This document shows, piece after piece, positions 1 to 54,108 of a stretch of 54,500 nucleotides of DNA (positions are counted from its first letter, which is position 1; every line of letters begins with the position of its first letter). The translations under genes were made by a program, and so were the position numbers. The stretch comes from a bacterium. Its GTDB lineage: Bacteria > CLD3 > SB21. Where the stretch lies: positions 1 through 54,500 of the forward strand of contig JAIBAF010000020.1 of the NCBI GenBank assembly GCA_019695335.1. Reading direction: 5' to 3'. Below the pieces are notes generated by a model. It was not told the origin of the DNA, searched no databases, and saw only the letters and a list, made by a program, of their open reading frames with translations.

Positions 1-119
1 GTCAAAAGTCCGCTAATATATATAGGAAAACCTCCCATTTCAACAATTAAATTCATCGAACCTGCTTCAAACCGTATTCAAAATTTATACAGTGAACAGC
101 CCCCATTTACAATAAAATA

Positions 120-135
120 ACCCAAACGGGTCATA
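120..135 (+). promoter_or_regulatory. Operator-like dyad copy 1
   Basis: The sequence ACCCAAACGGGTCATA contains the perfect dyad ACCC-AAAC-GGGT. It is directly followed by copy 2 in inverted orientation, so the two form a larger palindrome of about 30 bp. No regulator gene for it is recognisable nearby. Confidence 0.5.
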
Positions 136-150
136 CCTGTTTAGGGTATG
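135..150 (-). promoter_or_regulatory. Operator-like dyad copy 2 (inverted)
   Basis: Read on the minus strand this is CATACCCTAAACAGGT, the same element with one extra base in the centre. It abuts copy 1 head to head. Confidence 0.4.
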
Positions 151-198
151 AAATTTTTAATTTTATATTAAATGGGTTATATAGTTGTTATTGATTTG

Positions 199-210
199 AC
201 CCAAACAGGT
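199..210 (+). promoter_or_regulatory. Operator-like dyad copy 3
   Basis: ACCCAAACAGGT lies 9 bases upstream of the -35 hexamer of the receptor promoter. It differs from copy 1 at one position. A partial copy (GGGTTATAT, 174-182) lies between copies 2 and 3. Confidence 0.45.
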
Positions 211-219
211 AGAAAATGC

Positions 220-248
220 TTGACATTTGCACAAACGGGTCATATATT
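220..248 (+). promoter_or_regulatory. Promoter of the TonB receptor operon, with operator copy 4 in its spacer
   Basis: The -35 TTGACA (220-225) and the -10 TATATT (243-248) are separated by exactly 17 bases, a near-consensus sigma70-type promoter. Operator copy 4 (CACAAACGGGTCATAT, 230-245) fills the spacer and overlaps the -10, the classical position for a repressor site. Transcription would start near 255, giving a leader of about 300 nt. The promoter call rests on hexamer match and spacing only. Confidence 0.6.
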
Positions 249-3578: not shown

Positions 3579-6500
3579 ATGAATAAGAGAAAAATATTCG
3601 CTATCGCGGGTATCCTGACGGTCATGGCGATCAGCCTGATGTATATATCGTTGGGTGTAGCCCGTGAAGATTCGAAATCACGGCTGAAAGCCCGGATCAA
3701 AAAACCGGATATTGTAGATGCCTTATATGTAGGCTACAATAACTGGAGTTACGTGATGAGAAATCAAGGATCATATTTCTATGATTCTCCGGATTTGGAT
3801 GATAATAACAATAATGCCGGTGGAGAATTTCCACGCGGATCGGGCCGTACGATTGTGTATGCGGCCGGTTTGTATGTGGCGGCTCCTAAAAACGGCGTCA
3901 ATAAGGTTTGTAGTGAGGTTGAGTTCTCAGCCGAATATCAACCGGGTCATATTTTAAATTCGAATGTTCCGTTTGCTTCACTGCAGGCGGAAGATCCGGC
4001 GTTGCCGACCAATAAGGTGTATGTGATTGACAAGGACAACCAAGGCGAAGGTGAAGATGCCGCCCGTTTAGCGGACTGGACAGCCTGGCCGGGCCTTCGG
4101 GATGTCTCCAATACTCCTGCGCTCATTGCCGATGCTCAGACTTGGGCGGTGTTCAATGATCTGGATTTAGATCTGAGCCAGGAAGCAATTGCCACCAGTC
4201 CCGATCCGGGATTGGGCTTGGAAGTAACGTTAGAGTCGTATGCGATCAATGAAGGTTCGCTGGCAGATGTGGTGTTCATTAAAATGATCATCGCAAATAA
4301 GACTAATGTCAATTACGATAGTTCTTATATTGGTTTGTGGATGGATGCTGATGTCAATAATTCCGGTAATGATATTGTCGGTATAGATACCGTTGCCGGA
4401 CTCGGATTCGTCTATGATTCCGAAAACGAGCCTTTCCCGGCTGCAACGGGATTTGATTTCTTCCAGGGTCCCGTGGTCGATACGGCAGCCGTTTCAGTTG
4501 AATTACGTCAGAAGTTTGGTGCGAATAAGACGGTGCTGACTTATAATCCGGCAGTTAATCGTTATGAAGTGACGAATCTGCCCGGCAACCAGATATGGCT
4601 CGGTGCGACGTCATTTAACACGTATGCTAATGGAACCGATCCGCATGCCAATTTTGAGCGATATAATTTGCTGGCCGGTTTGACGAAAGCCGGAGCTCCT
4701 AAAACCGGAACAGGTGAAAACTATAAGTATGCCTTCCCCGGCAATCCTCTGACTCAACAAGGCACTGCCAATGTGGCCAGCGCACTGGATAGGAATGATC
4801 AGCGTATTCTGCACGGTTGCGGACCATTCAGAATTGAGGCCAATTCAGCTCAGACTATATGGGCAGGCGTGATCGGCGGAGAAGGTGCAAACCGTCTGGC
4901 GGCTTTTGCCGTAATGAAAACGGTAGACAGTTATGCGCAAACAATTTTCAACGCGGGCTTGGTATTCCCGCGAGCCCCGGCAGTGCCGGCTATGTCTGTG
5001 GCTGCAGGCGATGGCAAAGTCGATATATCCTGGAATAATGCTGCAGAATATTCTGTCGACAATTTCGGACAATTGGCCGGTTTATCGGGTCCTGCGTTCT
5101 CAGCCAATTATCGTTCGAATGATTTTCAAGGATATCGTGTTTACAAAAGTCTGACGGGACTCTCGGGCAGCTATGACATGATAGCTGAATATGATTTAAT
5201 TGACGGCCGGGTTAGCCAATCCAATGCATTCATTGATGATAACGGATATTTACGTATCGAAGAAGTGGTATTTGGCACAGACAACGGATTGAAATATAGC
5301 TATACCGATCATGATGTGGTGAATGGTCGCCGGTATTACTATGCCGTTACATCGTATGATGCACAGCCGTATATCGGTTCGACAGGAAGCCCAGTGGTCG
5401 GTCCCGGCGGTGCCGCCATTCCTGGCCCGCTCGGATTGCCGATTACATTGGAGACGGCTCAGAGTGCAAACGTCACTTCCGTTGTACCAAGTCCGGTTCG
5501 TACTTCGGTTGCTGAAGCCCAAGTGGATAGTTTTGTTCATGTGGCCGGCGGCAGCGACGGTTTGATCGAATATGAGATTGTTGATTATGGAGCTGTCACG
5601 AATACGGACATTACCATTGAATTTTACAAGATACCCGATTCAACACTCAGCGGAAAAGATCTTGTAGGTTATGGAGCCAGTACGACGGCATACCGTGTTA
5701 TCAAAAATGGTATTCAGGTTAAGTTTTCAAATAAGCTTGACAATCCCAGCACATTTTATGATGCCAATGGTGACGGTATTTTTAATGGCACGGATGAAGT
5801 TCTAGATGACAGTTATTTTGCAACAACCATTGCTGTCAAAGACAACGATCTGAGTGATGAACAGTTTTATATCATTGACGGGATAATGGTTAAGGTCTAT
5901 GCTCCGCCGGCTTTCTTCAAGTCGGTAGAATATCAGCCGGGTCCTCAATATACAGCTGCCAATATGGATACAGCATGGTTTACCGGCCATTGGGATGGTC
6001 AGTTTGGCGATCAGGAATATGAAGATCTCGGTATCGGAGATGCTGATCATGGTTTCACGCCATATGTAGTCAATTACGGCGGTCCACCGAACAATGCAGG
6101 TGGAGCGGAATTCAATCGTAATCTACGTATTGTGTTTAGCCGTAATTCTGCCGAGTGGTCATATTCATACAGTACCAGCGGCGGCAGCGGAAATATGGTT
6201 AACTATGTCCGTGTACCATTCCGGGTGTTTGAGGTAGATCCGTCGGATGGTAATGCAACGCCCAGACAATTGAATATCGTTACACGCGATCGGAATACGG
6301 CGGGTGCTAACTCGCGTGGATTTGGTTTGTATACCGGTGGATTTACCAATGATCCATTGGATGATGGATTAGGCCCTCAGACACGCGGTTATTTCTTCAT
6401 TGATACGACGACGTATGATTTAGGAGCCAAGACCGGTCATTATGGAGCATTGGCTGGTGGAGAAAAGTTGAACGGTGTGGGCTTATTTGCAGGCCATGTC

Positions 6501-7151
6501 TATGCTGTATGGACGCCGGCACCAAGAGTGATTTCGAGTCTGGCCTCTACCGCAATGGACGGCGTGGAGTGGAATGAATTCTGTCGCACTACGATAGTAG
6601 GAACGTCCTATGATGCCACGACACAGAATACAGTTTATACCCAATTGCCGGACGAGGGTACGATTGAGATGATCGTTAATCACCCGTACACATCGGTCGA
6701 TCGGTATACGTTGTATACGTCTGGAATGAATGCAGCGCCGAAGGCTACAGTGAAGAAATCGATGAAAGACATCAAAGTTGTTCCGAATCCGTATTATGCC
6801 CGTGCAACGACGTATCAGTCAAATTTATTCAACAAGACGATCAAGTTCATGAACCTACCGGATGTAGCGACGATCAAGGTTTTCACGGTTGCGGGAGACT
6901 TGGTGACGATTATTAATCACAATTCGACGTCGAATAATGACCGTCGTAACACCAATCCGCTGAATCTGGCTGGTACAGTATCGGCGGGATATACGTCAAC
7001 AGAGCAGTGGAACTTGAAGAACGAAGGTGGTAAATTCGTGGCGAGCGGTATGTATATTGCCTTGATCGAAGCGCCGGGCGTTGGCAAGACGACGGTGAAG
7101 TTTGCTGTGATACAGGAAGCCACTACAATTAACGGACCGGATGTACGATAA
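3579..7151 (+). CDS. Giant secreted surface protein with fibronectin III-like domain and FlgD-like C-terminus
   Basis: This is a 1,190-aa exported protein of unknown function. It has an N-terminal signal sequence (about residues 1-28) and a large beta-rich body. A fibronectin III-like segment lies near 460-620, and one loop (DANGDGIFNGTDE) resembles an EF-hand/dockerin calcium loop. The C-terminal domain carries VVPNPYY and ends in an FlgD-like fold (ASGMYIALIE then KTTVKFAVIQ), a cell-surface sorting type common in FCB-group secreted proteins. It differs from the FPNPFN domains found elsewhere in this window, and about ten residues follow the fold. It is paralogous over its whole length to the protein at 8468. 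GGAG (3565-3568) supports the start. It is likely co-transcribed with the upstream TonB receptor and the downstream PorV-like gene, which suggests a surface partner of the receptor. That role is inferred. Confidence 0.85.
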   Translation: MNKRKIFAIAGILTVMAISLMYISLGVAREDSKSRLKARIKKPDIVDALYVGYNNWSYVMRNQGSYFYDSPDLDDNNNNAGGEFPRGSGRTIVYAAGLYVAAPKNGVNKVCSEVEFSAEYQPGHILNSNVPFASLQAEDPALPTNKVYVIDKDNQGEGEDAARLADWTAWPGLRDVSNTPALIADAQTWAVFNDLDLDLSQEAIATSPDPGLGLEVTLESYAINEGSLADVVFIKMIIANKTNVNYDSSYIGLWMDADVNNSGNDIVGIDTVAGLGFVYDSENEPFPAATGFDFFQGPVVDTAAVSVELRQKFGANKTVLTYNPAVNRYEVTNLPGNQIWLGATSFNTYANGTDPHANFERYNLLAGLTKAGAPKTGTGENYKYAFPGNPLTQQGTANVASALDRNDQRILHGCGPFRIEANSAQTIWAGVIGGEGANRLAAFAVMKTVDSYAQTIFNAGLVFPRAPAVPAMSVAAGDGKVDISWNNAAEYSVDNFGQLAGLSGPAFSANYRSNDFQGYRVYKSLTGLSGSYDMIAEYDLIDGRVSQSNAFIDDNGYLRIEEVVFGTDNGLKYSYTDHDVVNGRRYYYAVTSYDAQPYIGSTGSPVVGPGGAAIPGPLGLPITLETAQSANVTSVVPSPVRTSVAEAQVDSFVHVAGGSDGLIEYEIVDYGAVTNTDITIEFYKIPDSTLSGKDLVGYGASTTAYRVIKNGIQVKFSNKLDNPSTFYDANGDGIFNGTDEVLDDSYFATTIAVKDNDLSDEQFYIIDGIMVKVYAPPAFFKSVEYQPGPQYTAANMDTAWFTGHWDGQFGDQEYEDLGIGDADHGFTPYVVNYGGPPNNAGGAEFNRNLRIVFSRNSAEWSYSYSTSGGSGNMVNYVRVPFRVFEVDPSDGNATPRQLNIVTRDRNTAGANSRGFGLYTGGFTNDPLDDGLGPQTRGYFFIDTTTYDLGAKTGHYGALAGGEKLNGVGLFAGHVYAVWTPAPRVISSLASTAMDGVEWNEFCRTTIVGTSYDATTQNTVYTQLPDEGTIEMIVNHPYTSVDRYTLYTSGMNAAPKATVKKSMKDIKVVPNPYYARATTYQSNLFNKTIKFMNLPDVATIKVFTVAGDLVTIINHNSTSNNDRRNTNPLNLAGTVSAGYTSTEQWNLKNEGGKFVASGMYIALIEAPGVGKTTVKFAVIQEATTINGPDVR

Positions 7152-7194: not shown

Positions 7195-7230
7195 ATGGTA
7201 TCGCATAAAATTTTTCAAGGAGACAATCAT

Positions 7231-8250
7231 ATGAGAAAGATCTTATCCATACTGATGATAGCGTTATATGCTATCACTGTACAGGCCGGTGAAGAGAAAC
7301 GCGGAGAGGCCGGCTTCATGTTTTTGAAGGTTCCGATGGGCGCCCGGGAGGTTGGTATGGGCATGAACGGTCTGACGACGACCAGTGGCGCTAATGCGAT
7401 ATACTGGAACCCGGCGAATATATCGTCGGCGGATCGGGCAACGTTTTCGTTTTCGTATTTGAATCACTTTGCTGGTATCAGCTCAAACTATGCTGCGGTG
7501 TCGTTTCCGTATGCGGAAGCGGGCGTGTTTGCGATATCGTTCAACTACTTGAGTTACGGAGATATCGAAAAGACAACGGAAGCGAGTCCGGGAGGGAATA
7601 TCGGATTTTATTCACCGTATGAACTGGCGTTAGGTTTTTCGTATTCGAAACAGATCACGGACCGTGTGAGCGGTGGTTTGACGGTGAAGTTCATCAATTC
7701 GAAGATCGACCTGGTATCGGCCAGTGGAGTGAGCTTCGATTTTGGTTTTACGTATAACACGGGTTACCGTGGACTGAAGCTGGGCTTTGCGGCGACGAAT
7801 ATCGGTCCGCAGGCCAAGTATGATGGCGACGGTCTTACGCGCGAAATCGTTGATGCTTCAGGTTCGACGTCCTTTTTAAAATTCGATTCTGAGCCGTTTG
7901 AATTACCGGCGGCGGTGAATTTTGGAGCGAGCATGGAGTTGTATCGCAATGAACAGAATTCGATCACAGGTTTACTGGAGCAGAACATCAACAGCTTCCA
8001 GGCGAGTCGTACGAATCTGGGCTTTGAGTATGGGTTCCAGAACATGGTGTTTGCCCGTATGGGATACACGTCGACGTTGAAGAAAGACCGGGATTACAAG
8101 ACAGGTAAAGCATCGACGGCGGGCTTGACGTTCGGCGGCGGTATTGACTATAAGTTCAATGACAATCTCGGTGTCACGGTTGATTACGGTTATCTTGATA
8201 TGGGGCAACTTGATGCAACCCATCGTTTTACAGTTGGTATTAAATTCTAA
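7231..8250 (+). CDS. PorV/PorQ-family outer-membrane protein
   Basis: This is a 339-aa outer-membrane beta-barrel of the FadL-like PorV/PorQ family. In T9SS organisms PorV takes cargo from the translocon to the attachment complex. A signal peptide (MRKILSILMIALYAITVQAG) is followed by the family hallmark GAREVGMGMNGLTTTSGANA and YWNPANI, then repeated amphipathic strands ending in VGIKF. I chose the ATG at 7231 because AAGGAGA (7217-7223) lies just before it; an in-frame start at 7195 would put 12 extra residues before the signal peptide and overlap the stem-loop. Its place after a TonB receptor and a secreted giant suggests a dedicated secretion partner for this locus, but the family also includes proteins with no proven T9SS role. 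No other T9SS machinery gene is visible in the window. Confidence 0.88.
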   Translation: MRKILSILMIALYAITVQAGEEKRGEAGFMFLKVPMGAREVGMGMNGLTTTSGANAIYWNPANISSADRATFSFSYLNHFAGISSNYAAVSFPYAEAGVFAISFNYLSYGDIEKTTEASPGGNIGFYSPYELALGFSYSKQITDRVSGGLTVKFINSKIDLVSASGVSFDFGFTYNTGYRGLKLGFAATNIGPQAKYDGDGLTREIVDASGSTSFLKFDSEPFELPAAVNFGASMELYRNEQNSITGLLEQNINSFQASRTNLGFEYGFQNMVFARMGYTSTLKKDRDYKTGKASTAGLTFGGGIDYKFNDNLGVTVDYGYLDMGQLDATHRFTVGIKF

Positions 8251-14534: not shown

Positions 14535-15510
14535 AAGCCACTATCCGGTTTAGTAATTCATAAGTTTCACCGAAAACTTCGTACCGTTTCATGGATTGAA
14601 GAACGTGATGAACCACATTGGAAATGTACGGTAAATACTTTTTATTTCCAAAATGTTTATAAGCGTAGACAAAAGCTCCCGCATCATGCAATTTGCGTTG
14701 AATCAAAGTCCAGTCATAAATTCGATCAAAACTGTCCGGATTAAATAAATCCAGTTTTACTGTTCTATTGAAGTAATATCTGATTAATTCACGCTTAAAA
14801 TCAGGATCCAACGGTACGTAGACGTCTTCAATAAGGGAAACGAGATCGTATTGAGCTGGTCCCCACCGCGCATCTTGAAAATCTACCAAATACAATCGGT
14901 CAAATGAAAGCAACAAATTGGAAGATTGAAAATCACGGTGAGTAAAAACGCGTGGTTGTAAGGAAATTTCCGTAGCAAGCAGCCGGTGAAAATCGTCAAG
15001 AATTTTTTCTTCCTGTTCATTTAATGTATACTGAAAATGATTTTTTAGTAATTGTTCTTGGATATGGAATTGATATTCAAAAGTAAATTTTTCGTAATCA
15101 AAGACACGATGTGCCGCCACGGACGAAACGAATCCCGGAATAATTTGCAGCCGTATCAACAGATCGATGGCTTGAAAATAAAGATTTCGATTTTGGAGAT
15201 AATTATCACAAATGCGGTTTTCAAGCGTATGGTCACCCAAGTCTTCGACCAGCAGGAAATTAAATTCTGTGTTTTTATAAAAAATCTTTGGCGATGGAAT
15301 AGACTGTGATTCAAAAACGCGTTGAATTTCAATGTAATCCTTGAGTGACTCGGGTTTATCGGCCATCGATTGCAGCAACAGCGATGGCTGCTTCCACTTG
15401 TCCGCCAGCGATCCGGTTATTCGGAAAAATTTTTTCGAAGATGCTCCCGAGCTTACTGGCGTAAGCGTGAATGGTTGCTGAGGAAACAATTTGTTTAAAA
15501 CGTGATTCAT
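14518..15510 (-). CDS. AmgK-like aminoglycoside phosphotransferase-family sugar kinase
   Basis: This 330-aa kinase has the aminoglycoside phosphotransferase/choline kinase fold. Visible motifs are VEDLGD (88-93, hinge), the catalytic loop HRDFQSSN (191-198; catalytic Asp193, Asn198) and the metal-binding LVDFQDARWGPAQYDLVSL (from about 208). The FQDA.WGP.xYDLVSL pattern is characteristic of AmgK, the anomeric MurNAc/GlcNAc kinase of the cell-wall recycling bypass, which makes MurNAc 1-phosphate for MurU. It is the first gene of a fully overlapping operon that includes a MurU-like enzyme. No clear Shine-Dalgarno precedes the ATG. True antibiotic phosphotransferases have a different loop context, so a resistance role is unlikely. 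Confidence 0.82.
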   Translation of the reverse strand: MNHVLNKLFPQQPFTLTPVSSGASSKKFFRITGSLADKWKQPSLLLQSMADKPESLKDYIEIQRVFESQSIPSPKIFYKNTEFNFLLVEDLGDHTLENRICDNYLQNRNLYFQAIDLLIRLQIIPGFVSSVAAHRVFDYEKFTFEYQFHIQEQLLKNHFQYTLNEQEEKILDDFHRLLATEISLQPRVFTHRDFQSSNLLLSFDRLYLVDFQDARWGPAQYDLVSLIEDVYVPLDPDFKRELIRYYFNRTVKLDLFNPDSFDRIYDWTLIQRKLHDAGAFVYAYKHFGNKKYLPYISNVVHHVLQSMKRYEVFGETYELLNRIVAYGNRS

Positions 15511-24050: not shown

Positions 24051-24851
24051 TTACCCGCCGAACCGAAATTCCGGATACAGGCACATACCTCCGTCGACAT
24101 AGAGAGTGGTACCGGTGATGTAATCGGCTTCATCGGAACATAAAAACGCTACGGCGGCGGCCACGTCTTCGACTTCGCCGATGCGCCCGTACGGCATTTT
24201 CGTCATCAGATCAGCCATGCCTTTAGGATCGCTCCAAACGTTTTGATTGATCGGTGTTTTGATGGCGCCCGGCGCAACGCTGTTGATCCGGATTTTTTTC
24301 TCAGCGTATTCCTGCGCAACGGATTGAGCAAAAAGATTGATCCCTGCTTTGGTGGCACAATACGATGCAAATCCGGCCCACATAATGACCTGATGAACGG
24401 ATGAAATGTTTACAATTTTTCCACGCGAGCGCGATTTCGGACGGTTTTCGTTTTTCAGAAATTGTCTCACCGCGGCACGCGAACATAAAAAATTACCGGT
24501 TAAATTAACGCCGATCACTTTATCCCATTCCGCCTTCGTCACGTTCTCAAGAAAGTTGTGAATTTCAATTCCGGCATTATTTACCAGAATGTCGATCGTT
24601 CCGAAAGACTTGAACATTTGTGCGAACATAGTATTGACTTGTTCTTCATTGGACACGTCCGCTTTGATCCCGATGGCATTGCCGCCTTTAGATTTGATTT
24701 TTGCAATCAGTGCGTTCGTCGCGTCTTCGTTGGCGATATAATTGATAACAACTTCAGCGCCTTCCGTGGCAAGGCGTTCGGCAATCGCCGCTCCAATGCC
24801 TGAATTCGCACCGGTGACCAGCGCTTTTTGGCCTTCAAGTCTTTTTTCCAT
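24051..24851 (-). CDS. Glucose 1-dehydrogenase-like short-chain dehydrogenase
   Basis: This 266-aa SDR has the cofactor motif TGANSGIG (13-20), the NNAG motif, catalytic Ser in NISSVHQ, and Tyr/Lys in SYCATK. The C-terminus VDGGMCLYPEF is close to that of Bacillus-type glucose 1-dehydrogenases, so oxidation of a sugar or related alcohol with NAD(P) is the best guess. The start is supported by a GAGGAG-like site just upstream. It leads a two-gene operon with the small membrane protein. Confidence 0.85.
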   Translation of the reverse strand: MEKRLEGQKALVTGANSGIGAAIAERLATEGAEVVINYIANEDATNALIAKIKSKGGNAIGIKADVSNEEQVNTMFAQMFKSFGTIDILVNNAGIEIHNFLENVTKAEWDKVIGVNLTGNFLCSRAAVRQFLKNENRPKSRSRGKIVNISSVHQVIMWAGFASYCATKAGINLFAQSVAQEYAEKKIRINSVAPGAIKTPINQNVWSDPKGMADLMTKMPYGRIGEVEDVAAAVAFLCSDEADYITGTTLYVDGGMCLYPEFRFGG

Positions 24852-25078
24852 AAAAACTCCTCAATTTGGATTGGATGGAACGTAAAGATGATACGTAAAT
24901 TGACAAAAAAATTTTGAGGTTGGTAACTGATATAAGTTTAAAAATTTTGCGCAAGAAAGACAAGAAGGATTCGTTCTACATCAAGATCTTGCGGTAAAAT
25001 TTTAATAATCCTGAAAATAATTTGCAGAAATAAAGCAGAAAAATATGCACAGCGAATTCGATGCGTTCCGGTATGGAA

Positions 25079-43140: not shown

Positions 43141-46100
43141 TTATTTGATAAAAAGCATTTTCTGAGCTTTGTTGAATTGGCCGGCTTCCATGCGGTAGAT
43201 GTATACGCCGCTTGCAACGCTCTGACCTGCATTATTCCTTCCATCCCATGCCACTTCAAATTTACCAGCCGGTTTGACATCATTGACCAGAGTACGGACT
43301 TCCTGACCAAGCATATTGTATACTTTAATGACAACTCTGTTTTCAGCCGGAACGGAGTAACGGATATTCGTTGTTGGATTGAATGGATTCGGATAATTTC
43401 TTTCCAACGCAAAGTCCTTAGGTGTTGCATCAAAATCCGGATTGTAAAATACGGCGATCTGATTCGATGTTACAGCAGCGGCAACTTTTCCTTTGTCGCC
43501 CATTCCGCCGGCATATTGCCATGTACCGTTGGTATATTGATATAATCCAATTTTAGCTTCATCGAAATCCGTATACTCTATACGCACCGTACCTGCGTCA
43601 TAGGAAAATTCCGCTTTCAAGTCAGCATAACTTCCCGTTACAGCGACGTCCACAGGCAATCCGATTAACCTTAAGTTTGGCGGGACATTCAGTGCCATGG
43701 ATTGGCCTAATAAAATGTATCCGTTACCTTTTCCACTGAATGAATAGTTATGATATGAAGTGGATTTGGACAATTGCGAAATTGTATACGAACGTGAAAA
43801 ACTGGATGGATTAAGCGTCGAATCCGTGGCTGAAACTGTCGTGTTGAGGCTGCCGACAGTCGTAATCGTATAATTTCCAAAATATAAGTTACCTTGTTTT
43901 GTCAAAGTAATCGAAGTGGAATTAACCGATAAGGCAACGGAAATAATGCTTTCATCGGCTCCCACGGCAAAACGAATCACATTGACAACTGGTGAGGCCA
44001 GAACTCCCAATACGAGGCTGGGTGAAGTCTGATCACCATTGATATTGAGATTGTCGATGGCCCATCCCCATCCATTAGTGGCTTCATCGGCAAACAGACG
44101 AAAACGAATAAAAATTGGCGTTCCCGCAGAAAATTTGCTTAATAAATTAATTTCATGTCGGCGGAAAAGCGAAGGCGTTCCGTTTGCGTTGTTATTGAAA
44201 GCTGTTACCCAGACTGATTGGAGGCGTGCATCCCACCCGTTTTCTAGAGGTATCCATGTAATACCGTCTGCTGTACCTTCCACAATGACGTAATCCCAAA
44301 AATTAGGATCCCCGAAAACAGTCCCTGGATCACCAGGTTCCACTAACGCAATTTCATCGAAGACTAATTTAGATGTTCCCGTTGCAACAATTACAGGGAC
44401 GTTCAATTGGTAAATAAGTTCGTGATTGTCGCTATAGGGATGAGCTGTGTGAATAGCCGGATTAGAAAATCCTGAGGGTGCTGTGATGGAAAAACCATTA
44501 CCGGTAAAATCACTGCTGGCGGAATTGAAGTTGTTGACATATTTTGTTTGAGGAGCATTGGCTTGAATGATTTGGATAGTTTGCGCATAAGATTTGTAAG
44601 TATTTCCGTTCTTATAGGATACAATCTGGACCGGTACATTGCCGGAGATCAGAGTTGTTACTTCCAAAGCAGTGTCCTTGACTGTATTAGTGCCGATGGT
44701 TGCTATTTTAACCTGATTAATTATGACCGATGTTGAATCGTATGCCGAGCGCAAACTGACATTGACTGCTACTTTTCCGTTCGGATTTTGGCCCGATGAA
44801 TTGATTCGTGGCGCTAAAGTGGCTACCGGTAATGTCGGGATATCGGGTATATTCACTGACCAAACTCCGCGGCCAAATGTTGCAGCGACTACATCATCAT
44901 CGACTATATTGAGTTGCCAGATCGAGACTGGCGGAAGTCCATTGTTGGCAAAAGCCCACGTTGCACCATTGTCTGTCGATATGAATAATCCGATTTCTGT
45001 TCCCACCCAGATTTCATTCAAGTTATGCGGCATAACTTGCAAGCAATACACAGCTACATTTGGGAACCCATTGCTACTTGATGAATTAGCGCCAAATCCG
45101 GAAATGTCTTCCCACGTTTGTCCGAGATTGGTTGTTCGCAATACTTTCGGAGAATTGGCAAAAGAAAATAGAGCAAACGCAGTTGAATCTTCTGTCGGAT
45201 GTGTCGCTAACCCTGATAGCCGGCCCAAGGTTGCAGTCGTATAATTATTAGTGGCTGTAAAAGTAAGTCCACCGTCGATTGATACCTGAATTTTTCCTGA
45301 CGCGGACATACGTCCACCTGCCCAGACAATTTGGGGATTTTTCTGTCCGATCTTTACAAAATGAATACTCCCGTTAAAACCCCAATTAGCGGTGCTGACG
45401 GTACTCAGTTTCCACGTATTCGCAAAATCGTCTGATCTCCACACGCCGCTGGCTCCGGCGGCAAAGATAAGGTCGGGATCTTGTTTCGAACGGCCAATTT
45501 GTGTAACAAAAGGTCCGAGATTATCCTGATCCGTCAGGCCACTGGTGGCGTCGAACCAAGATGTTCCGTTGTCAGTTGATTTATAAATTGCATTATTATA
45601 GATCGTTCCCAAAACTTCATTGGTTCGTACGGGATTCCACGCTACGTCAAATCCGTCACCGCCTAATTCTCGAGTCCACGAAGACGTATTTGTAGAGGTT
45701 GACCCTGCAGGCGATTTCCATGTACCATTGTCCTGAGTACCACCAATAAATTCATACGCTCCCGTCTTCTTATCGACTCCGTAGAACTGAGTCGTATTAT
45801 ATCCAATAACGGTCGTCTGATCGATTGTCCATGTTTTACCGCTATTGGTAGAAGCAGCAATTCCACCGTCGCTGGTATTGACGATTTTGAAACTATTGGT
45901 TGCCTGATCGACGGGTATAACAGCCAAATTATGGTGATCGACGTGAACATTTCCATTTATAAAACCATATTTAGTATTATAAGGTGGAAAATTATAGGGA
46001 TTGGATACTGTAATGTTTGTTCTGTTTCGTGATGCTGTACTCTTGAGTGCAGTAAAGATTATTTTTGAATTTGGCAAACTATTTGGATTCCAAGGAGTTG

Positions 46101-47850
46101 TATCTGTAGGCGGCCGAGGGCCAAATTCGCAAACTTCTTTGTATTTGATGCCTCCGGTAACAGCTATATTAGGATCTGCAACCGATGAACTATAAGTGAC
46201 GGCATGAATGAAAGTGTATTCTCTAAATGTTGATGAGATTGAGTCAATAGATGAGGGACTTAAATCCCATGCTCCATCACGTTTTTCATCGCGGAATGAA
46301 ATCATTAACTGCCTGTTATTTGTAATATCCCATGCCTGAAATGGAACGTCAACATAATCCAGATAACTGTATTGGGCGGTTGTTTGTCCGGCTCCTTTGC
46401 TTTGAGTCATAAAACGATGTGCTTTTTGAGTAATTCCAGATCCGAAACGAATTTCTACATCAAACGTTGTATCAGCCGCAGCCAAATTTGTAGGGTTAGT
46501 GCTTCCGAAACCGCCAAATCCTGTTCCCATACCGCCGTTTAGATGTCCCAGCCCGAAATTAGTAAATGTCAGGAATGATGATGTACCAATTGTATCGGCC
46601 GTTCGTACAAGTACCGTATCAATGACAGGCGTTAAACCAATTTTCAGCATTACAACACCGCCAACAAAAACAGTATCCTTTGAATAGGGGTGAACGACAA
46701 TTGTGTTATCGTAATCACCTTGGGCTTCTAACCAATTTTTGCCATCAGTACTCTTGGCGAGTAGCCAAGTGGATGCACGATCATCACTCACATATAAATC
46801 ACAAGTACTGTTACTGACTTCAGCAGCGGCAAAAACTCGATTAGTATCTAGAGCAGTAATGGCCAATTCAAGTCGGCTTACTCCCCCAATACCGGTTTTG
46901 GCACTGGCCCAGGTTTGACCACCGTCAAATGAACGCACGACGCCAAAACCATTGACCGATGCATATTGTGTATTGAAATTTAACGGATTGGCGATGATAT
47001 GTTGAACTGAATTGGAACTGGAATAAACTTGATCCCAGTTATCGCCACCGTCAATCGAGCGGTAAATGCCGTCTGTGGTGCAAGCCAATACTAAATCTTC
47101 ATCTGTTGGGCTTACGATGACACGGTTAACATATTTGAAATGAGAATTGCCGGCCGTGTTGGCTAATTGAAACCATGTTTCGCCGTGATCTGTCGATTTA
47201 AAAATGCCGTCGCCGGAATTATAGGTATAAAAGTCACCTTTTCCATTTCCGGTAAACGCTTCGCCGCTACCCATATAAATCACATCGTGATTGGATGCAG
47301 CCATCGCCAGAGAAGTGGCCGATAAATTAGGCAGATTAGGAGCTTTGGCTTCCCACGATGCACCGGAATTGGTAGTTTTCCAAACACCGCCAGAAACGGA
47401 TCCCGTAAACCATGTGTTACCCGTCGCATCATCCGGATCGATAATCAGTCCGCGCGTACGGCCGGCCACATTAGCCGGGCCTCTCTCCACCCAAGGCAAC
47501 GCATCGAAACTTTTCAACAATTTTCTCGATGTTTGGCTTGAAGCATCAGAACTTAAGATTCCCGCTTTGATCATTTCTTTGATTCTATAATTGGATATGT
47601 ATGCGGGCGTCGATTGTCCGTCTTTGGTTCGGATATCATGCTGAAATTGGACAAATCCTTCGGGATTGTCACTTTCATGATTTTCTTGTTTATGTTTTTG
47701 AACCCGCTTTTTTGTTGGCAATAAATTGTTTGGTATGAAAGCCATCGGTGTATTGTTCGGCATCGGCTTTTCGATCACACCAACAAGACCGACACACAGT
47801 ACAATTCCGGTCAATAATAGTCCGGTTGACCATAGAAAACGTTGTCTCAT
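43141..47850 (-). CDS. Giant T9SS-secreted Asp-box protein
   Basis: This 1,569-aa exported protein begins with a signal segment (FLWSTGLLLTGIVLCVGLVG). Two propeller-like regions follow, with about ten Asp-boxes (TTNSGASW, STDHGETW, SIDGGDNW, SFDGGQTW, STDNGTSW, TTNLGQTW, STDNGATW), split by an insert near residues 400-640. A jelly-roll segment (about 1180-1340, with WAIDNLNI) resembles the MAM or immune-inhibitor-like type. The type A sorting domain at the end holds NYPNPFNPTTNIRYSVP, VYNMLGQEVRTL, ASGVYIYRM and the tail KMLFIK. GGAGAG precedes the start. Size and design suggest adhesion or a surface structure; no catalytic motif is evident. Confidence 0.88.
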   Translation of the reverse strand: MRQRFLWSTGLLLTGIVLCVGLVGVIEKPMPNNTPMAFIPNNLLPTKKRVQKHKQENHESDNPEGFVQFQHDIRTKDGQSTPAYISNYRIKEMIKAGILSSDASSQTSRKLLKSFDALPWVERGPANVAGRTRGLIIDPDDATGNTWFTGSVSGGVWKTTNSGASWEAKAPNLPNLSATSLAMAASNHDVIYMGSGEAFTGNGKGDFYTYNSGDGIFKSTDHGETWFQLANTAGNSHFKYVNRVIVSPTDEDLVLACTTDGIYRSIDGGDNWDQVYSSSNSVQHIIANPLNFNTQYASVNGFGVVRSFDGGQTWASAKTGIGGVSRLELAITALDTNRVFAAAEVSNSTCDLYVSDDRASTWLLAKSTDGKNWLEAQGDYDNTIVVHPYSKDTVFVGGVVMLKIGLTPVIDTVLVRTADTIGTSSFLTFTNFGLGHLNGGMGTGFGGFGSTNPTNLAAADTTFDVEIRFGSGITQKAHRFMTQSKGAGQTTAQYSYLDYVDVPFQAWDITNNRQLMISFRDEKRDGAWDLSPSSIDSISSTFREYTFIHAVTYSSSVADPNIAVTGGIKYKEVCEFGPRPPTDTTPWNPNSLPNSKIIFTALKSTASRNRTNITVSNPYNFPPYNTKYGFINGNVHVDHHNLAVIPVDQATNSFKIVNTSDGGIAASTNSGKTWTIDQTTVIGYNTTQFYGVDKKTGAYEFIGGTQDNGTWKSPAGSTSTNTSSWTRELGGDGFDVAWNPVRTNEVLGTIYNNAIYKSTDNGTSWFDATSGLTDQDNLGPFVTQIGRSKQDPDLIFAAGASGVWRSDDFANTWKLSTVSTANWGFNGSIHFVKIGQKNPQIVWAGGRMSASGKIQVSIDGGLTFTATNNYTTATLGRLSGLATHPTEDSTAFALFSFANSPKVLRTTNLGQTWEDISGFGANSSSSNGFPNVAVYCLQVMPHNLNEIWVGTEIGLFISTDNGATWAFANNGLPPVSIWQLNIVDDDVVAATFGRGVWSVNIPDIPTLPVATLAPRINSSGQNPNGKVAVNVSLRSAYDSTSVIINQVKIATIGTNTVKDTALEVTTLISGNVPVQIVSYKNGNTYKSYAQTIQIIQANAPQTKYVNNFNSASSDFTGNGFSITAPSGFSNPAIHTAHPYSDNHELIYQLNVPVIVATGTSKLVFDEIALVEPGDPGTVFGDPNFWDYVIVEGTADGITWIPLENGWDARLQSVWVTAFNNNANGTPSLFRRHEINLLSKFSAGTPIFIRFRLFADEATNGWGWAIDNLNINGDQTSPSLVLGVLASPVVNVIRFAVGADESIISVALSVNSTSITLTKQGNLYFGNYTITTVGSLNTTVSATDSTLNPSSFSRSYTISQLSKSTSYHNYSFSGKGNGYILLGQSMALNVPPNLRLIGLPVDVAVTGSYADLKAEFSYDAGTVRIEYTDFDEAKIGLYQYTNGTWQYAGGMGDKGKVAAAVTSNQIAVFYNPDFDATPKDFALERNYPNPFNPTTNIRYSVPAENRVVIKVYNMLGQEVRTLVNDVKPAGKFEVAWDGRNNAGQSVASGVYIYRMEAGQFNKAQKMLFIK

Positions 47851-47890: not shown

Positions 47891-48337
47891 TTATTGATCG
47901 CGCGAATTTTGATCTATTTGCTTTTTAGTATGATGAGATACGTTGAAAATAAATAGGTGGACTCCGGATTCGTTCTCCGATGTCATGTGCCCGGTTTTTG
48001 AAAGTATTTCGACTTCGTTATGACTTGTCCAACGCACACTTCCGTCGGCAATGGATTCTTCATAGACTATCTTTTTTTCAGACAAGCTATAAATAAAAAA
48101 ACTGACACTTTTCTTGGGATTTAAAGCGGTAGGTTTTGATGAATGGCTGCAAAGGACATAGGTGGAGTCGCTATTAAACAATACGTCAAATTGTCCTTGA
48201 AATTTTGAAGTCGCTAAGGTTCTGTAATCACTTTCATTCTGGAATGTTTTCGTTGAATGACTTGAGGTGCAAGTCGTGATTACAAAAGAAATGAAAAAAA
48301 GAAAATAACGGATCAAGGAAAGAATTAAATTATTCAT
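47891..48337 (-). CDS. Small lipoprotein-like protein of unknown function
   Basis: This 148-aa protein has an N-terminal hydrophobic segment (LIRYFLFFISFVITTC) that ends in a cysteine with Ser/Thr following, a weak lipobox. The rest is beta-rich (FDVLFNSDSTYVLCSHSS, SFFIYSLSEKKIVYEES). No family is recognised. AAGGAATA precedes the ATG. It lies 40 bases before the giant cargo gene and is the first gene of the operon, whose promoter region carries the same dyad as the receptor at 558. Confidence 0.68.
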   Translation of the reverse strand: MNNLILSLIRYFLFFISFVITTCTSSHSTKTFQNESDYRTLATSKFQGQFDVLFNSDSTYVLCSHSSKPTALNPKKSVSFFIYSLSEKKIVYEESIADGSVRWTSHNEVEILSKTGHMTSENESGVHLFIFNVSHHTKKQIDQNSRDQ

Positions 48338-48392: not shown

Positions 48393-48434
48393 GGTGTTTT
48401 TTAAAAAATTAATGAATGTAGGAAAGCAAAGATA

Positions 48435-48450
48435 GGTAGTTTTAACTACC
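48435..48450. repeat. Perfect 16-bp palindrome next to an operator-like dyad
   Basis: GGTAGTTTTAACTACC reads the same on both strands. It directly abuts the dyad ACCCAAACGGGGT (48448-48460, minus strand), with a three-base shared edge, and lies immediately upstream of the TATCTTTG element. Confidence 0.5.
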
Positions 48451-48460
48451 CCGTTTGGGT
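48448..48460 (-). promoter_or_regulatory. Operator-like dyad copy 5, distant from the other copies
   Basis: On the minus strand this reads ACCCAAACGGGGT, matching the copies at 120-245 with one extra G. It lies upstream of another surface-protein operon, suggesting a shared regulator. Confidence 0.4.
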
Positions 48461-48673
48461 CTGAATTTGGTTATAACGACTGCTTTTCAGTTGTTATTGA
48501 CCTAATTGTGTCATCGAAATGTTAAAAATTAATTATCTAATAGTCAATATTTTATTTTATAAAAAAACCTTAAGTTTATTAACTTTCAAATCAGTTATTT
48601 CAATATTAGCCGGGTACGTTATTGGGAAAATACCTTAGTTTTAGAGAGCTGTAATGAGATTTGTCGATAAAAG

Positions 48674-49188: not shown

Positions 49189-49992
49189 CTATTTCTCCCG
49201 TACGCGCGTATTGCGCAAAAAATCCTTTTTGGAGCACCGAATAGGCGATGAAAAAAACTTAGTTGGCCGTTCAAACTTGAATGAATCGCTCAGATTAAGA
49301 AAATATTGCCCGTCTTTATAAACTATCCGGCTTCCCAATTGGTGAAAAGCGCGAAGGCCTGTAACAATTCGGTTATCCGAACAATCAATTTTTATCTGAT
49401 TATGAGCGTAATTCAAAAGACTACAATTTGATGCTTTCAGTTTCCTGTTGTGGATGGTCGAAGCCGATATATTGAACATCTTCTGTAAATAGCGGACGGA
49501 GAGCATATCAGGCGTATAGTGAGGCTCAAGCGCGTCAACGCTTAAGCTATCCCGTTTATTGAAGGACTGGCGCAAAGTATAAAACCTCGCGCCGTGTGTG
49601 CCCTTGCCATGATGATGCCTCCGCCACTTTACTAAATGCTCAATATTGACCGAAAAAAATATCTCTTTCATGAGAGGCAAATCCTCCACGTTGAAATTGA
49701 AGCAGGAAGCAGATTCAATGGAAAAATCATACAAAAGCCTCTGATAGCTCGTAAAGTAATAACAGCCAGCAGAATCGACGGGGCGAACCCAATGCAATGA
49801 TTTCGCCATTGCCAGATACTTTCTGACTGTTCTTTCCTTCCGATTCATTAGTTGCCCCATAGTGTTCATATTGGTAAAGCTGGGAGTAAATTTTCCGATT
49901 GGAAATAAGTATCGGGCAGCTATCCAAAAGCTAAATGGTTTATAAAGCTTTTGTTTGATTATTTCCTTTGACAGTTCAACGTGAATCCGCAT
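49189..49992 (-). CDS. Unrecognised protein with two helix-turn-helix-like segments
   Basis: This 267-aa basic protein is not placed in a family. A winged-helix-like stretch lies at about 43-72 (NTMGQLMNRKERTVRKYLAM then HWVRPV) and a second HTH-like stretch at 164-187 (LSVRYLQKMFNISASTIHNR). The C-terminus is rich in Arg and Lys. This could be a replication initiator or a regulator of the element; nothing decides between them. It starts 3 bases from the stop of the 140-aa gene, so it is translationally coupled. Confidence 0.65.
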   Translation of the reverse strand: MRIHVELSKEIIKQKLYKPFSFWIAARYLFPIGKFTPSFTNMNTMGQLMNRKERTVRKYLAMAKSLHWVRPVDSAGCYYFTSYQRLLYDFSIESASCFNFNVEDLPLMKEIFFSVNIEHLVKWRRHHHGKGTHGARFYTLRQSFNKRDSLSVDALEPHYTPDMLSVRYLQKMFNISASTIHNRKLKASNCSLLNYAHNQIKIDCSDNRIVTGLRAFHQLGSRIVYKDGQYFLNLSDSFKFERPTKFFSSPIRCSKKDFLRNTRVREK

Positions 49993-49995
49993 TTC

Positions 49996-50418
49996 TTAAA
50001 ATATCTCTAATTGAGATGACATGACTATTTCTGAAGGTACTTCCTTATCAATTCCGAAGTCGTTAACTTTCAAAAAAATCTGCTTTTCAAAACCGGAAAA
50101 CTGCATAAAAAACCCTTTGCGGAGGACAGTCTCTCGACTTGTTTGAAGGAACTTACCAAAGGGTAGGTGGATTATGATTGTTGTAAATGAACTGCCTTTG
50201 AGTAGCTCGTAATTGAAGCCGTAGGCATTGGATTTTCTGTGGAGATGTTTTGTCGGAAGGCGTTCGCAGTGAAATGTTGTTCCAATTATCCAGCCGATAT
50301 TACGGGATTGTTTGCCGTCATGCCAATTAACAATTCCTGAACTCGTAATTTCAATCTGAGACCGATTTGAAAATGACTCTTGCATCAGTCCCATTTTTGG
50401 CGTAGAATATGTGCGCAT
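49996..50418 (-). CDS. Unrecognised small protein of the island
   Basis: This 140-aa protein has no recognised family, signal peptide or membrane helix. It is moderately basic, with predicted beta-rich stretches (FTTIIIHLPFG, GFFMQFSGFEKQIFLKV). The Shine-Dalgarno AGAAAGAG lies directly after a terminator-like hairpin (50433-50468), so expression should depend on read-through from the excisionase-like gene. It is coupled to the 267-aa gene. Confidence 0.6.
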   Translation of the reverse strand: MRTYSTPKMGLMQESFSNRSQIEITSSGIVNWHDGKQSRNIGWIIGTTFHCERLPTKHLHRKSNAYGFNYELLKGSSFTTIIIHLPFGKFLQTSRETVLRKGFFMQFSGFEKQIFLKVNDFGIDKEVPSEIVMSSQLEIF

Positions 50419-51135: not shown

Positions 51136-54108
51136 TTACTTCGTATTAAACCTCTCGTAAATCTTCTTGAGCATAACGTCAGCTACGGTTTCTTTGATAG
51201 AAGTGTTCTCCATGATTCGCTGAAAAATATCTTGGTTATCTTCCATGCGGTCAATAAGCGTCGAAATGAGTTTGTCTTCAAATCCGAATTTAAAATTCTC
51301 AATTGAATTGGTCTGAGCCTGCTTCATGAGAGTTTCGTCTTTTAGTAATTCCGTCTCAATTTGGTCAAAAAATAACTTGTCCGCTTCGTCCAGTTCCATT
51401 CCAAAACGGTCATTCAATACTTCAATAATTTGTGATAACTTTGCTTTTTCTTCTTTATCCCTTGAAATTCCGGCTTCGGTCATAGGCTTAAGATTGTATT
51501 CACCCATCTTTTCCATGACTAAACCACCCTCGCTTATTTTCTGCAAGCGATAATATTGCAACGTCACATCATTATCTAATTTTAGCCGTTCGCTTGCATC
51601 AGTCTTGGGCAGGCGATTCAATAATAAACGTCCATACGAGTAGAATTTTTCTAATTCCACATCTTGGAAAGGCATGATTTGAGACAAGAAAGAATAAAGC
51701 CTTACAAATGAAATCAAGGATTTCTTGAAACTATCTTTCAACTCCTCAGTTTTTAAATTTGAAAAACGGTCTTTCGCCGGACTTGTCAATGCGTAAAGCT
51801 TCGCTTGGTCTTTGGTAGGGGAAGCATCCCGTTTAAAAAAGACTGATGCGAATGCGTCTATTTCTGATTGAAAATAGACTTGAGCGGCATCGAGTTTATT
51901 TTTTAAGTCATACAAATGATTCGGGTCGGTAGTCTCTGCCAAGCCAGTCTGTTCGTAGTATTGCTGAAATGCCTCGATTATCGTATCAGTATCGTTTACA
52001 AAATCTAAAATGAATGTATCTTCTTTTCCCATGCAAGTCCGGTTAAGCCTTGAAAGCGTTTGCACGGCCTTTACACCGGAAAGTTTCTTATCCACGTACA
52101 TAGTATGCAAGAGGGGCTGGTCAAATCCCGTTTGATATTTATCGGCTACCAACAAAACTTGATATTCACTGGTATTAAATTTGTCAGGCAATTCCTTTTC
52201 GCCGAATCCGTTGAGTTCAGATTCCGACACGCCTTCCGTATAGCCTTCATCAATGACCTTGCCTGAAAAAGCAACCAAAGCTTTTATATGCGAATAATTC
52301 TTTTCTTTGATATAGTTTTTGAATTCCAAGTAATAACGCAGAGCGTGAAGTCGTGAACTGGTCACGACCATTGCTTTGGCCTTACCGCCAATTTTTTTCG
52401 ATGTCACTTGCCGGAAATGTTCAACCATTACTTCTGTTTTTTGGGACAGATTATGCGGGTGCAGAGAGACAAAACGCGCAATTGCCCGGCTGGCTTTTTT
52501 CTTATTCAGTTCAGGGTCGTCTTCGATGGCCTTCGAGAGTTTAAAATATGTTTTATAGCTTACATAGTTCTGCAATACGTCCAGAATGAATTTTTCTTCA
52601 ATAGCTTGCCGCATGGAATAGAGATGAAACGGCTCCGGTTTTCCGTTGTTATTCTTCGCTCCGAAAACCTCCAGCGTTTTGTTTTTGGGTGTAGCTGTAA
52701 AAGCAAAGAAACTAAGGTTCGGTTGTTTGCCCCTCGCTATCATAGATTTACGAATTTCATCTTCGCCGTCTTCCATTTCTATTCCATCTTCAACCTCCGC
52801 GTCTTCCAAAGACTTTGCAGACAAAACCTCTTTCATCTTTTTGCTGGCTTCGCCGCCTTGCGAACTGTGGGCTTCGTCAACGATTATGGCGTAATTCCGC
52901 TTTGGCAGGTCTTTAATTTTGTCGAGCGTAAACGGAAATTTCTGCAATGTTGTAATGACAATGCTTGTCCCTGCGGTAATAGCTTCCGCTAATTGTTTTG
53001 AATCTTCCTTGATGCACTGAACAACGCCTGTTTTGTGTTCAAATTGATAAATCGTGTTTTGCAATTGCTGGTCTAAGACATTCCGGTCGCTCACGACAAT
53101 GACCGAATCAAAAACGCGTTTATCTTCTTTATTGTGGAGGCTCGATAAATGATACGCCAGCCATGCAATCGTATTGCTTTTACCGCTTCCGGCTGAGTGT
53201 TGTATTAAATAATTTTTTCCTACGCCGTATATTTTGGCATCGGCTGTCATTTTCCGTACAGATTCCAACTGGTGGAAACGCGGAAATATCATAGTTTCTT
53301 TTTTAAATTTTTTTCCATCTACGGTAATTTCTTCCACTTGTAAATGAAGGAAACGGGCGATAATATCCATCCAGCTGTCTTTTTGCCAGATTTCTTGCCA
53401 CAAATAGGCCGTCTTGTAGCCGTCAGGGTTCGGCGGATTGCCCGCGCCGTTATTAAAGCCTTTATTAAAAGGAAGGAAACGGGTACGCTCGCTTTCCAAT
53501 TTTGTGGTCAGATAAACTTGGTCGGGGTCAACAGAAAAATGAACTAACGCGCGTTTTTTGAATTGAAACAGCAATTCGCGCGGGTCGCGGTCATACATAT
53601 ATTGCTTTTCAGCATTCGTCACGTCTTGCCCGGTGAATGGATTCTTTAGCTCGACGGTCGCAACGGGCAAGCCGTTCAAACTCAAAAGCAAGTCAATGGA
53701 GTTTTCATTTTTGGTGCTGTAGTGAACTTGCCGGGTAACGATAAGGCGGTTTTTATTGTACAGCGCAATCGTTTCGGGATTCAGCCCGCTTTCAGGTCTG
53801 AAATAGGCCATCTTGAAGCGCACGCCACTATCGGTGAAACCATTGCGAATGACATCAAGCGAGCCACGTAATTCCAATTCTTTGCAAAGGCGGTAAATGA
53901 CTTTTGCGGAGGTATCGGCTTGATAGAGTTTTTTAATATTTTCCCATGCTTTCGGCTGTGAATCTTGGAGAAAAGCCAAAACATTCTTTTCATCCAGAGC
54001 GGTTTCCCGATTAAAGTCCTCCGCGCGACCTGAAAGCCAATCGCATTTGGTCAGGTAATCTACTATGGCGGTTTCGAATGTTACTTCTGTGTGAATTGGT
54101 CGGGCCAT
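51136..54108 (-). CDS. hsdR: Type I restriction-modification system endonuclease subunit HsdR
   Basis: This 990-aa restriction and translocation subunit joins HsdM and HsdS to cut unmodified DNA. The N-terminal PD-(D/E)xK nuclease is visible (Asp139, Glu153-Leu-Lys155 in VELKNP). The helicase motor follows, with Walker A QHSAGSGKS (about residue 305), a DEAH-type box IVDEAHSSQGG, motif III FFAFTATPKNK and motif VI QTLSRLNRT, and a helical C-terminus that binds the methylase. The frame is intact. A 125-aa gene precedes it by 2 bases; hsdS and hsdM are not in the window and should lie beyond 54500. Confidence 0.96.
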   Translation of the reverse strand: MARPIHTEVTFETAIVDYLTKCDWLSGRAEDFNRETALDEKNVLAFLQDSQPKAWENIKKLYQADTSAKVIYRLCKELELRGSLDVIRNGFTDSGVRFKMAYFRPESGLNPETIALYNKNRLIVTRQVHYSTKNENSIDLLLSLNGLPVATVELKNPFTGQDVTNAEKQYMYDRDPRELLFQFKKRALVHFSVDPDQVYLTTKLESERTRFLPFNKGFNNGAGNPPNPDGYKTAYLWQEIWQKDSWMDIIARFLHLQVEEITVDGKKFKKETMIFPRFHQLESVRKMTADAKIYGVGKNYLIQHSAGSGKSNTIAWLAYHLSSLHNKEDKRVFDSVIVVSDRNVLDQQLQNTIYQFEHKTGVVQCIKEDSKQLAEAITAGTSIVITTLQKFPFTLDKIKDLPKRNYAIIVDEAHSSQGGEASKKMKEVLSAKSLEDAEVEDGIEMEDGEDEIRKSMIARGKQPNLSFFAFTATPKNKTLEVFGAKNNNGKPEPFHLYSMRQAIEEKFILDVLQNYVSYKTYFKLSKAIEDDPELNKKKASRAIARFVSLHPHNLSQKTEVMVEHFRQVTSKKIGGKAKAMVVTSSRLHALRYYLEFKNYIKEKNYSHIKALVAFSGKVIDEGYTEGVSESELNGFGEKELPDKFNTSEYQVLLVADKYQTGFDQPLLHTMYVDKKLSGVKAVQTLSRLNRTCMGKEDTFILDFVNDTDTIIEAFQQYYEQTGLAETTDPNHLYDLKNKLDAAQVYFQSEIDAFASVFFKRDASPTKDQAKLYALTSPAKDRFSNLKTEELKDSFKKSLISFVRLYSFLSQIMPFQDVELEKFYSYGRLLLNRLPKTDASERLKLDNDVTLQYYRLQKISEGGLVMEKMGEYNLKPMTEAGISRDKEEKAKLSQIIEVLNDRFGMELDEADKLFFDQIETELLKDETLMKQAQTNSIENFKFGFEDKLISTLIDRMEDNQDIFQRIMENTSIKETVADVMLKKIYERFNTK

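Follow-up and report, generated by a model that had tools for sequence, protein, structure and literature searches.

A conserved 16-bp dyad ahead of TonB-receptor operons and its probable NarL/FixJ-type regulator

The analyzed window is the whole of contig C20 (54,500 bp), one of the 130 contigs that make up a 3.76-Mb assembly. An operon near its start encodes a TonB-dependent receptor, a 1190-aa protein and a PorV/PorQ-family protein, and is preceded by a promoter and several dyads. A second operon, on the opposite strand, encodes a predicted lipoprotein and a large protein with a sorting domain of the type IX secretion system (T9SS) (Table 1). The weak match to PorZ makes the 1190-aa protein a possible T9SS cargo. 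The contig starts inside an ORF (window 1-120), whose stop codon overlaps operator site 1 and whose last 39 residues have no relative in the family. The first 560 bp of the contig occur once in the genome (next match E 0.08), so the contig does not begin with a mobile or repeated element. Toward the other end, positions 51136-54108 encode a Type I restriction R-subunit-like protein, and the neighboring ORFs at 49189-50418 have no Pfam match. A tRNA was the sole match in an RNA-family search.

Table 1 Features of the receptor operon, its upstream region and the second operon; operator sites are predictions
Feature	Position	Strand	Details
Operator site 1 (predicted), TAACCCAAACGGGTCA	118..133		Full 16-bp dyad TNACCY-N4-RGGTNA; top score of 54.5 kb with outside-trained matrix
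5-bp-spacer dyad ATACCTGTTTAGGGTAT	133..149		Variant operator or terminator hairpin of truncated upstream ORF
Operator site 2 (predicted), TGACCCAAACAGGTAG	197..212		Ends 7 bp upstream of -35; 16.4 bits, rank 3 in window
Promoter of receptor operon, TTGACA-N17-TATATT	220..248	+	TTGACA 220-225, TATATT 243-248; 11/12 consensus positions
Half-site GGGTCA in promoter spacer	237..242		Abuts -10; 18-mer 226-243 scores 11.9 bits, ~1 expected per window
TonB-dependent receptor, 984 aa	558..3512	+	Carboxypeptidase-regulatory-like N-terminus; Pfam PF00593, PF07715, PF13715
1190-aa protein	3579..7151	+	No Pfam match; weak match to PorZ C-terminal part
PorV/PorQ-family outer-membrane protein	7195..8250	+	NCBIfam NF033709, 202 bits against cut-off 90
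1569-aa protein, T9SS-type C-terminal sorting domain	43141..47850	-	FlgD_ig above cut-off; Por_Secre_tail below cut-off
148-aa predicted lipoprotein	47891..48337	-	Lipobox-like ITTC; first gene of second operon
Weak dyad CTACCCCGTTTGGGTCT, proposed earlier as fifth copy	48446..48462		5-bp spacer; 5.4 bits with outside-trained matrix; among 27 genome N5 sites
Candidate operator TGACCTAATTGTGTCA	48498..48513		One mismatch; 16.95 bits, rank 2 of window, 0.05 expected

A sequence-only reading of the window had proposed that four copies of an ACCC-N4-GGGT dyad, one inverted and one overlapping the -10 element, lie at a textbook promoter ahead of the TonB receptor operon, and that a fifth copy and a shared 12-mer place the second operon under the same regulator. 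The promoter is present as described, and its identical hexamers and spacing also occur upstream of the relatives' receptors G2_C408 and G3_C16. Two of the copies are likewise found (ACCCAAACGGGT at 120-131 and ACCCAAACAGGT at 199-210), and so is the 12-mer AGTTGTTATTGA, at 183-194 and 48489-48500. The literal consensus is off, however, as the conserved unit is the 16-bp dyad TNACCY-N4-RGGTNA. The literal motif is not enriched. Allowing up to one mismatch, ACCCNNNNGGGT matches the window 10 times where 10.24 matches are expected, and ACCCAAACRGGT has 21 genome sites, fewer than the 37 of its reversed control; ACCCAAACRGGT was dropped as an operator definition on the latter count. The inverted copy exists, at 133-149, but its spacer is 5 bp long and it also scores like a terminator hairpin. 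Patterns with this N5 spacer are not enriched (27 genome sites against 66 in the control), which ruled them out as a second class of operator. What had been read as a copy across the -10 element (230-240) is a half-site that abuts it, with no full dyad.

The strict dyad TDACCYNNNNRGGTHA has five sites in the genome, against eight for the control, and all five lie upstream of three TonB-receptor paralogues (window 118-133, three on contig 11 and one on contig 56); part of the tuning of the search pattern used sites that the search afterwards recovered. Across the family set of seven genomes there are 41 strict sites against 55 in the control, again no excess, and the one-mismatch dyad in the window's own genome, at 92 against 242, shows none either. 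The strict dyad is therefore rare and well placed rather than abundant. Intergenic positions hold 29 of the 41 family sites, compared with 27 of 166 permuted palindromes (P 1e-14); the 29 comprise 19/31 in fetched loci, 5/5 in L085, L086 and L090, and 5/5 in the window, G001:C152 and G002:C263. One-mismatch sites taken unselected fell within open frames in nine of ten cases. Twelve others, picked by hand, included seven intergenic ones beside unrelated genes (DnaA, peptidase S41, Fer2, beta-lactamase fold and others), and a wider regulon built on such sites was rejected for want of any theme of surface genes. In this genome the strict sites point to three operons and do not amount to a broad regulon of surface proteins.

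Matrices trained on one set of sites recovered the other. A matrix built from six non-window sites in receptor upstream regions ranked 117-134 first in the 54.5 kb (21.5 bits, a score absent from a 3-Mb simulation), followed by 48497-48514 (16.95 bits, 0.05 expected per 54.5 kb), 196-213 (16.4 bits, 0.07 expected) and 226-243 (11.9 bits, about 1 expected). The reciprocal matrix drew on 117-134, 196-213 and the weak dyad first read as the fifth copy, all three in the window. With it, the promoter sites took the top three ranks both on contig 11 (20 kb) and in L072, and the promoter site came first on contig 56 (20 kb), in L087 and in L090. Chance palindromes favored by AT-rich intergenic DNA would suit the absence of enrichment for the literal motif and for loose patterns, but they sit badly with the five-of-five placement of strict sites, with the reciprocal matrices and with arms that are conserved while spacers change between species. 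Chance is the explanation that we hold least probable, and for sites 1 and 2 it is largely refuted; that refutation does not extend to 48446, 48498 or 237-242.

Two paralogues of the window receptor occur in the same genome, one 87% identical (contig 56) and one 64% identical (contig 11); G001, G002 and G003 have orthologues. The contig 56 receptor is followed by a 1189-aa copy of the 1190-aa protein (75% identical). Of the eight receptor upstream regions compared outside the window (contigs 11 and 56 and genomes G001, G002 and G003), five carry the dyad. Its offsets from the receptor start are -405, -272 and -244 on contig 11 and -403, -270 and -242 in G001:C152, while single dyads lie at -352 on contig 56, -356 in G001:C100 and -325 in G002:C263. 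The expected conservation ahead of orthologous receptors was borne out for G001:C152, G001:C100 and G002:C263 and failed for G001:C208, G002:C408 and G003:C16, where no dyad is present. The distant receptors of genus g4 in L048 and L049 also have no dyad, L049 with almost no upstream sequence. The window dyads are not a leftover of duplication, because the 560 bp ahead of the receptor are unique although the receptor itself and its contig 56 paralogue share 87% identity. On contig 11 the promoter of the receptor operon was not identified.

A conserved regulator next to the operon in relatives, which the earlier reading had suggested looking for, occurs at three loci, namely contig 11, G001:C152 and G002:C263. 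At each of them it is the gene immediately upstream, and a dyad lies just past its stop codon. The contig 11 gene (24283-24897) encodes a 205-aa response regulator of the NarL/FixJ type, with a receiver domain (PF00072, 7e-22) and a GerE-type domain (PF00196, 5.6e-20). Its score of 118.9 bits against an equivalog cut-off of 250 does not identify it as an orthologue of the nitrate regulator NarL. Next to it is the gene for a 1033-aa sensor kinase (L085:10924-14025) with Reg_prop, Y_Y_Y, HisKA_3 and HATPase_c domains, which, going by adjacency, would serve this regulator. Orthologues of the regulator (61-98% identical) are found in six of the seven family genomes, across three genera, and are absent from two other members of the class. 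All five orthologues in the alignment have the recognition helix SEETVRRHLK, whereas the seven paralogues in it have other sequences there. In G003 the best match is 51% identical, too distant for a close orthologue, and no dyad precedes the receptor orthologue of that genome; the G1_C208 and G2_C408 receptors have no dyads although the G001 and G002 genomes hold the regulator.

No orthologous regulator adjoins the window operon, where the contig breaks off on the upstream side. Among the 31 window proteins included in the Pfam scan none matched a response-regulator or GerE domain, and the regulator would therefore act on the window in trans. The contig 56 operon also has no orthologous regulator beside it and is adjoined instead by a paralogous one, 45% identical. 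Two dyads of the form ACTATCC-N4-RGGTAGT lie on contig 56 between the PorV-family gene and this regulator gene (L086:15202-15219 and 15276-15293; gene start 15375), and ACTAYCYNNNNRGRTAGT has four genome sites against none in the control.

Such a paralogous NarL-type regulator (for example L086:15375-16013), or cross-acting paralogues, might act on the window sites instead. Both contig 56 dyads lie within about 175 bp upstream of that gene, and the AGGTAG half of window site 2 and CTACCC in 48446 resemble this variant. Against this, the TNACCY form tracks the SEETVRRHLK orthologue over three genera, and the exact ACTAYCY-N4-RGRTAGT is absent from the window; we consider control by a paralogue unlikely.

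In genus g4 the orthologous regulators are 72-73% identical, and a HisKA_3 kinase is again the neighbor. In all three genomes (G004, G005 and G006) a dyad lies 53-58 bp before the start of the kinase-regulator operon, with a second one 48 bp further up. These score 19.7-21.5 and 16.5 bits, and the next best sites 8.0 or less. Dyads thus stand upstream of several operons and are kept in relatives (three operons of the own genome, the G001 and G002 receptor operons and the g4 kinase-regulator operon), without a genome-wide excess over chance. Other g4 dyads lie between genes and persist from species to species, mostly with altered spacers; they precede DUF2911 proteins and a tricorn-like protease, adjoin a CAP-domain protein and are present at two further places. 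By themselves they say little, because their flanks are conserved as well (66-80% identity). The dyad ahead of a DUF2911-type gene is conserved across the three g4 genomes (L121, L128 and L138), and L121 contains three consecutive DUF2911 genes.

All 13 sites compared, which were chosen by that form, are hexamer-4-hexamer (7-2-7) inverted repeats. Within this selection ACC/GGT is invariant in 13 of 13, and the two arms change independently at positions 2 and 6, with pairing kept in six and four of the 13 sites, respectively. This pattern suits half-sites that are read by a protein dimer and does not suit an RNA stem. RNA hairpins, terminators or attenuators would account for the terminator-like scores of 131-151, which covers the dyad at 133-149, and of 117-134 on the minus strand, for the overlap of site 1 with the ORF stop codon, and for the contig 11 dyad that lies beside a clear terminator. 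Set against the loss of pairing, these points leave the RNA reading very unlikely. At the receptor operon the dyads are very likely real regulatory sites, of an ordinary kind.

At the second operon, the proposed fifth copy exists as the N5 variant at 48446-48462 and is weak; the dyad at 48498-48513 is a better one, with about 0.0016 such scores expected per 435 bp. Within 48434-48462 a near-perfect palindrome (AGGTAGTTTTAACTACC) borders the weak dyad and, on the minus strand, resembles a terminator. The receptor half of the claim that one regulator serves both loci is well supported by the paralogous and orthologous sites and the adjacent regulator; for the lipoprotein/T9SS operon the link is weakly supported. 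In favor are the 16.95-bit dyad, the N5 dyad nearby and the 12-mer common to both loci. The better dyad, however, has a mismatch, and near-identical copies of it (TGACCTRATYGTGTCA) lie at G000:C4:79720-79735 (intergenic) and G000:C11:41583-41598 (coding), so that the three sequences are possibly a separate operator. The orthologous locus of the sister species G001, with the same tRNA-Arg, has a 3-bp-spacer dyad (TTGACCTGAAAGGTCAA) and no 4-bp-spacer dyad, and no score exceeds 10.6 bits at the five other orthologues. Control of the 48.4-kb operon by the same regulator is thus a tentative suggestion, and we lean against it.

The observed sites, with their positions and conservation, the linkage to the regulator and the common recognition helix suggest that the window dyads are probably operators of the contig 11 NarL/FixJ regulator, part of a two-component switch for receptor operons. 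A dimer would sit on each 16-bp inverted repeat, with one GerE domain per TNACCY hexamer. Encoded in trans, it would use the dyads at 118-133 and 197-212, helped by the half-site at 237-242, and would control the paralogous operons for a TonB receptor, a large protein and a PorV-family protein in the window and on contigs 11 and 56; in a sister genus its target would be the operon that encodes the regulator itself and the kinase. Binding itself, its dependence on phosphorylation and a ligand are what we infer. The center of site 2, about 50 bp before a predicted start, is an activator-like placement, and the near-consensus promoter with its spacer half-site would also suit repression.

Similar sites are known from other lineages. 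PMC4797271 gives the ComA box of Bacillus subtilis as TTGCGG-N4-CCGCAA, with a 4-bp spacer best and 5 bp tolerated. ComA, too, is a response regulator with a tetrahelical helix-turn-helix that reads two inverted hexamers, with extra half-sites near the promoter, whereas the hexamer here is TNACCY, the lineage is another one, the targets are receptor and PorV-family genes, and the sites are predicted. For Escherichia coli NarL, PMC4549865 describes an engineered 7-2-7 site, TACCCCTAAAGGGGTA, along with single heptamer sites. It is the same 16-bp inverted repeat with a C-rich left and a G-rich right arm, but the half-site here is TAACCC rather than TACCCC, and nothing points to a role for nitrate.

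In Bacteroidota, polysaccharide-utilization loci have regulators with Reg_prop/Y_Y_Y sensors, among them hybrids that carry an AraC-type output in the same chain. The sensor kinase described here resembles them in combining a propeller with Y_Y_Y and in adjoining TonB-receptor operons, but the regulator is a separate NarL-type protein, and a scan of operon proteins turned up no SusD. PorX/PorY provides two-component control of type IX secretion. Por-family genes would be under two-component control here as well, in this case through a GerE output and with PorV/PorQ-like paralogues beside TonB receptors as targets. A literature search, with subscription journals mostly outside its coverage, returned no title or abstract opening that describes this operator or system.

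It is conceivable, though we would put it below even odds, that this is a lineage-specific propeller-sensor system that coordinates duplicated TonB-receptor/PorV-like modules through a dedicated 16-bp operator. Paralogues would have split operator variants (TNACCY and ACTAYCY), and the regulon would have moved from receptor operons in genus g1 to autoregulation and other envelope and protease genes in g4. If so, changes in recognition helix and operator could be traced together over genera. Apart from this wider scenario, the probable link to the contig 11 regulator offers a testable regulator-operator pair for a lineage represented here by metagenome assemblies only, and connects surface operons of the TonB/PorV-family kind with a propeller-type sensor. 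Because the operator tracks one recognition helix over three genera and the paralogues differ, it is also a usable case for reading NarL-type specificity from sequence.
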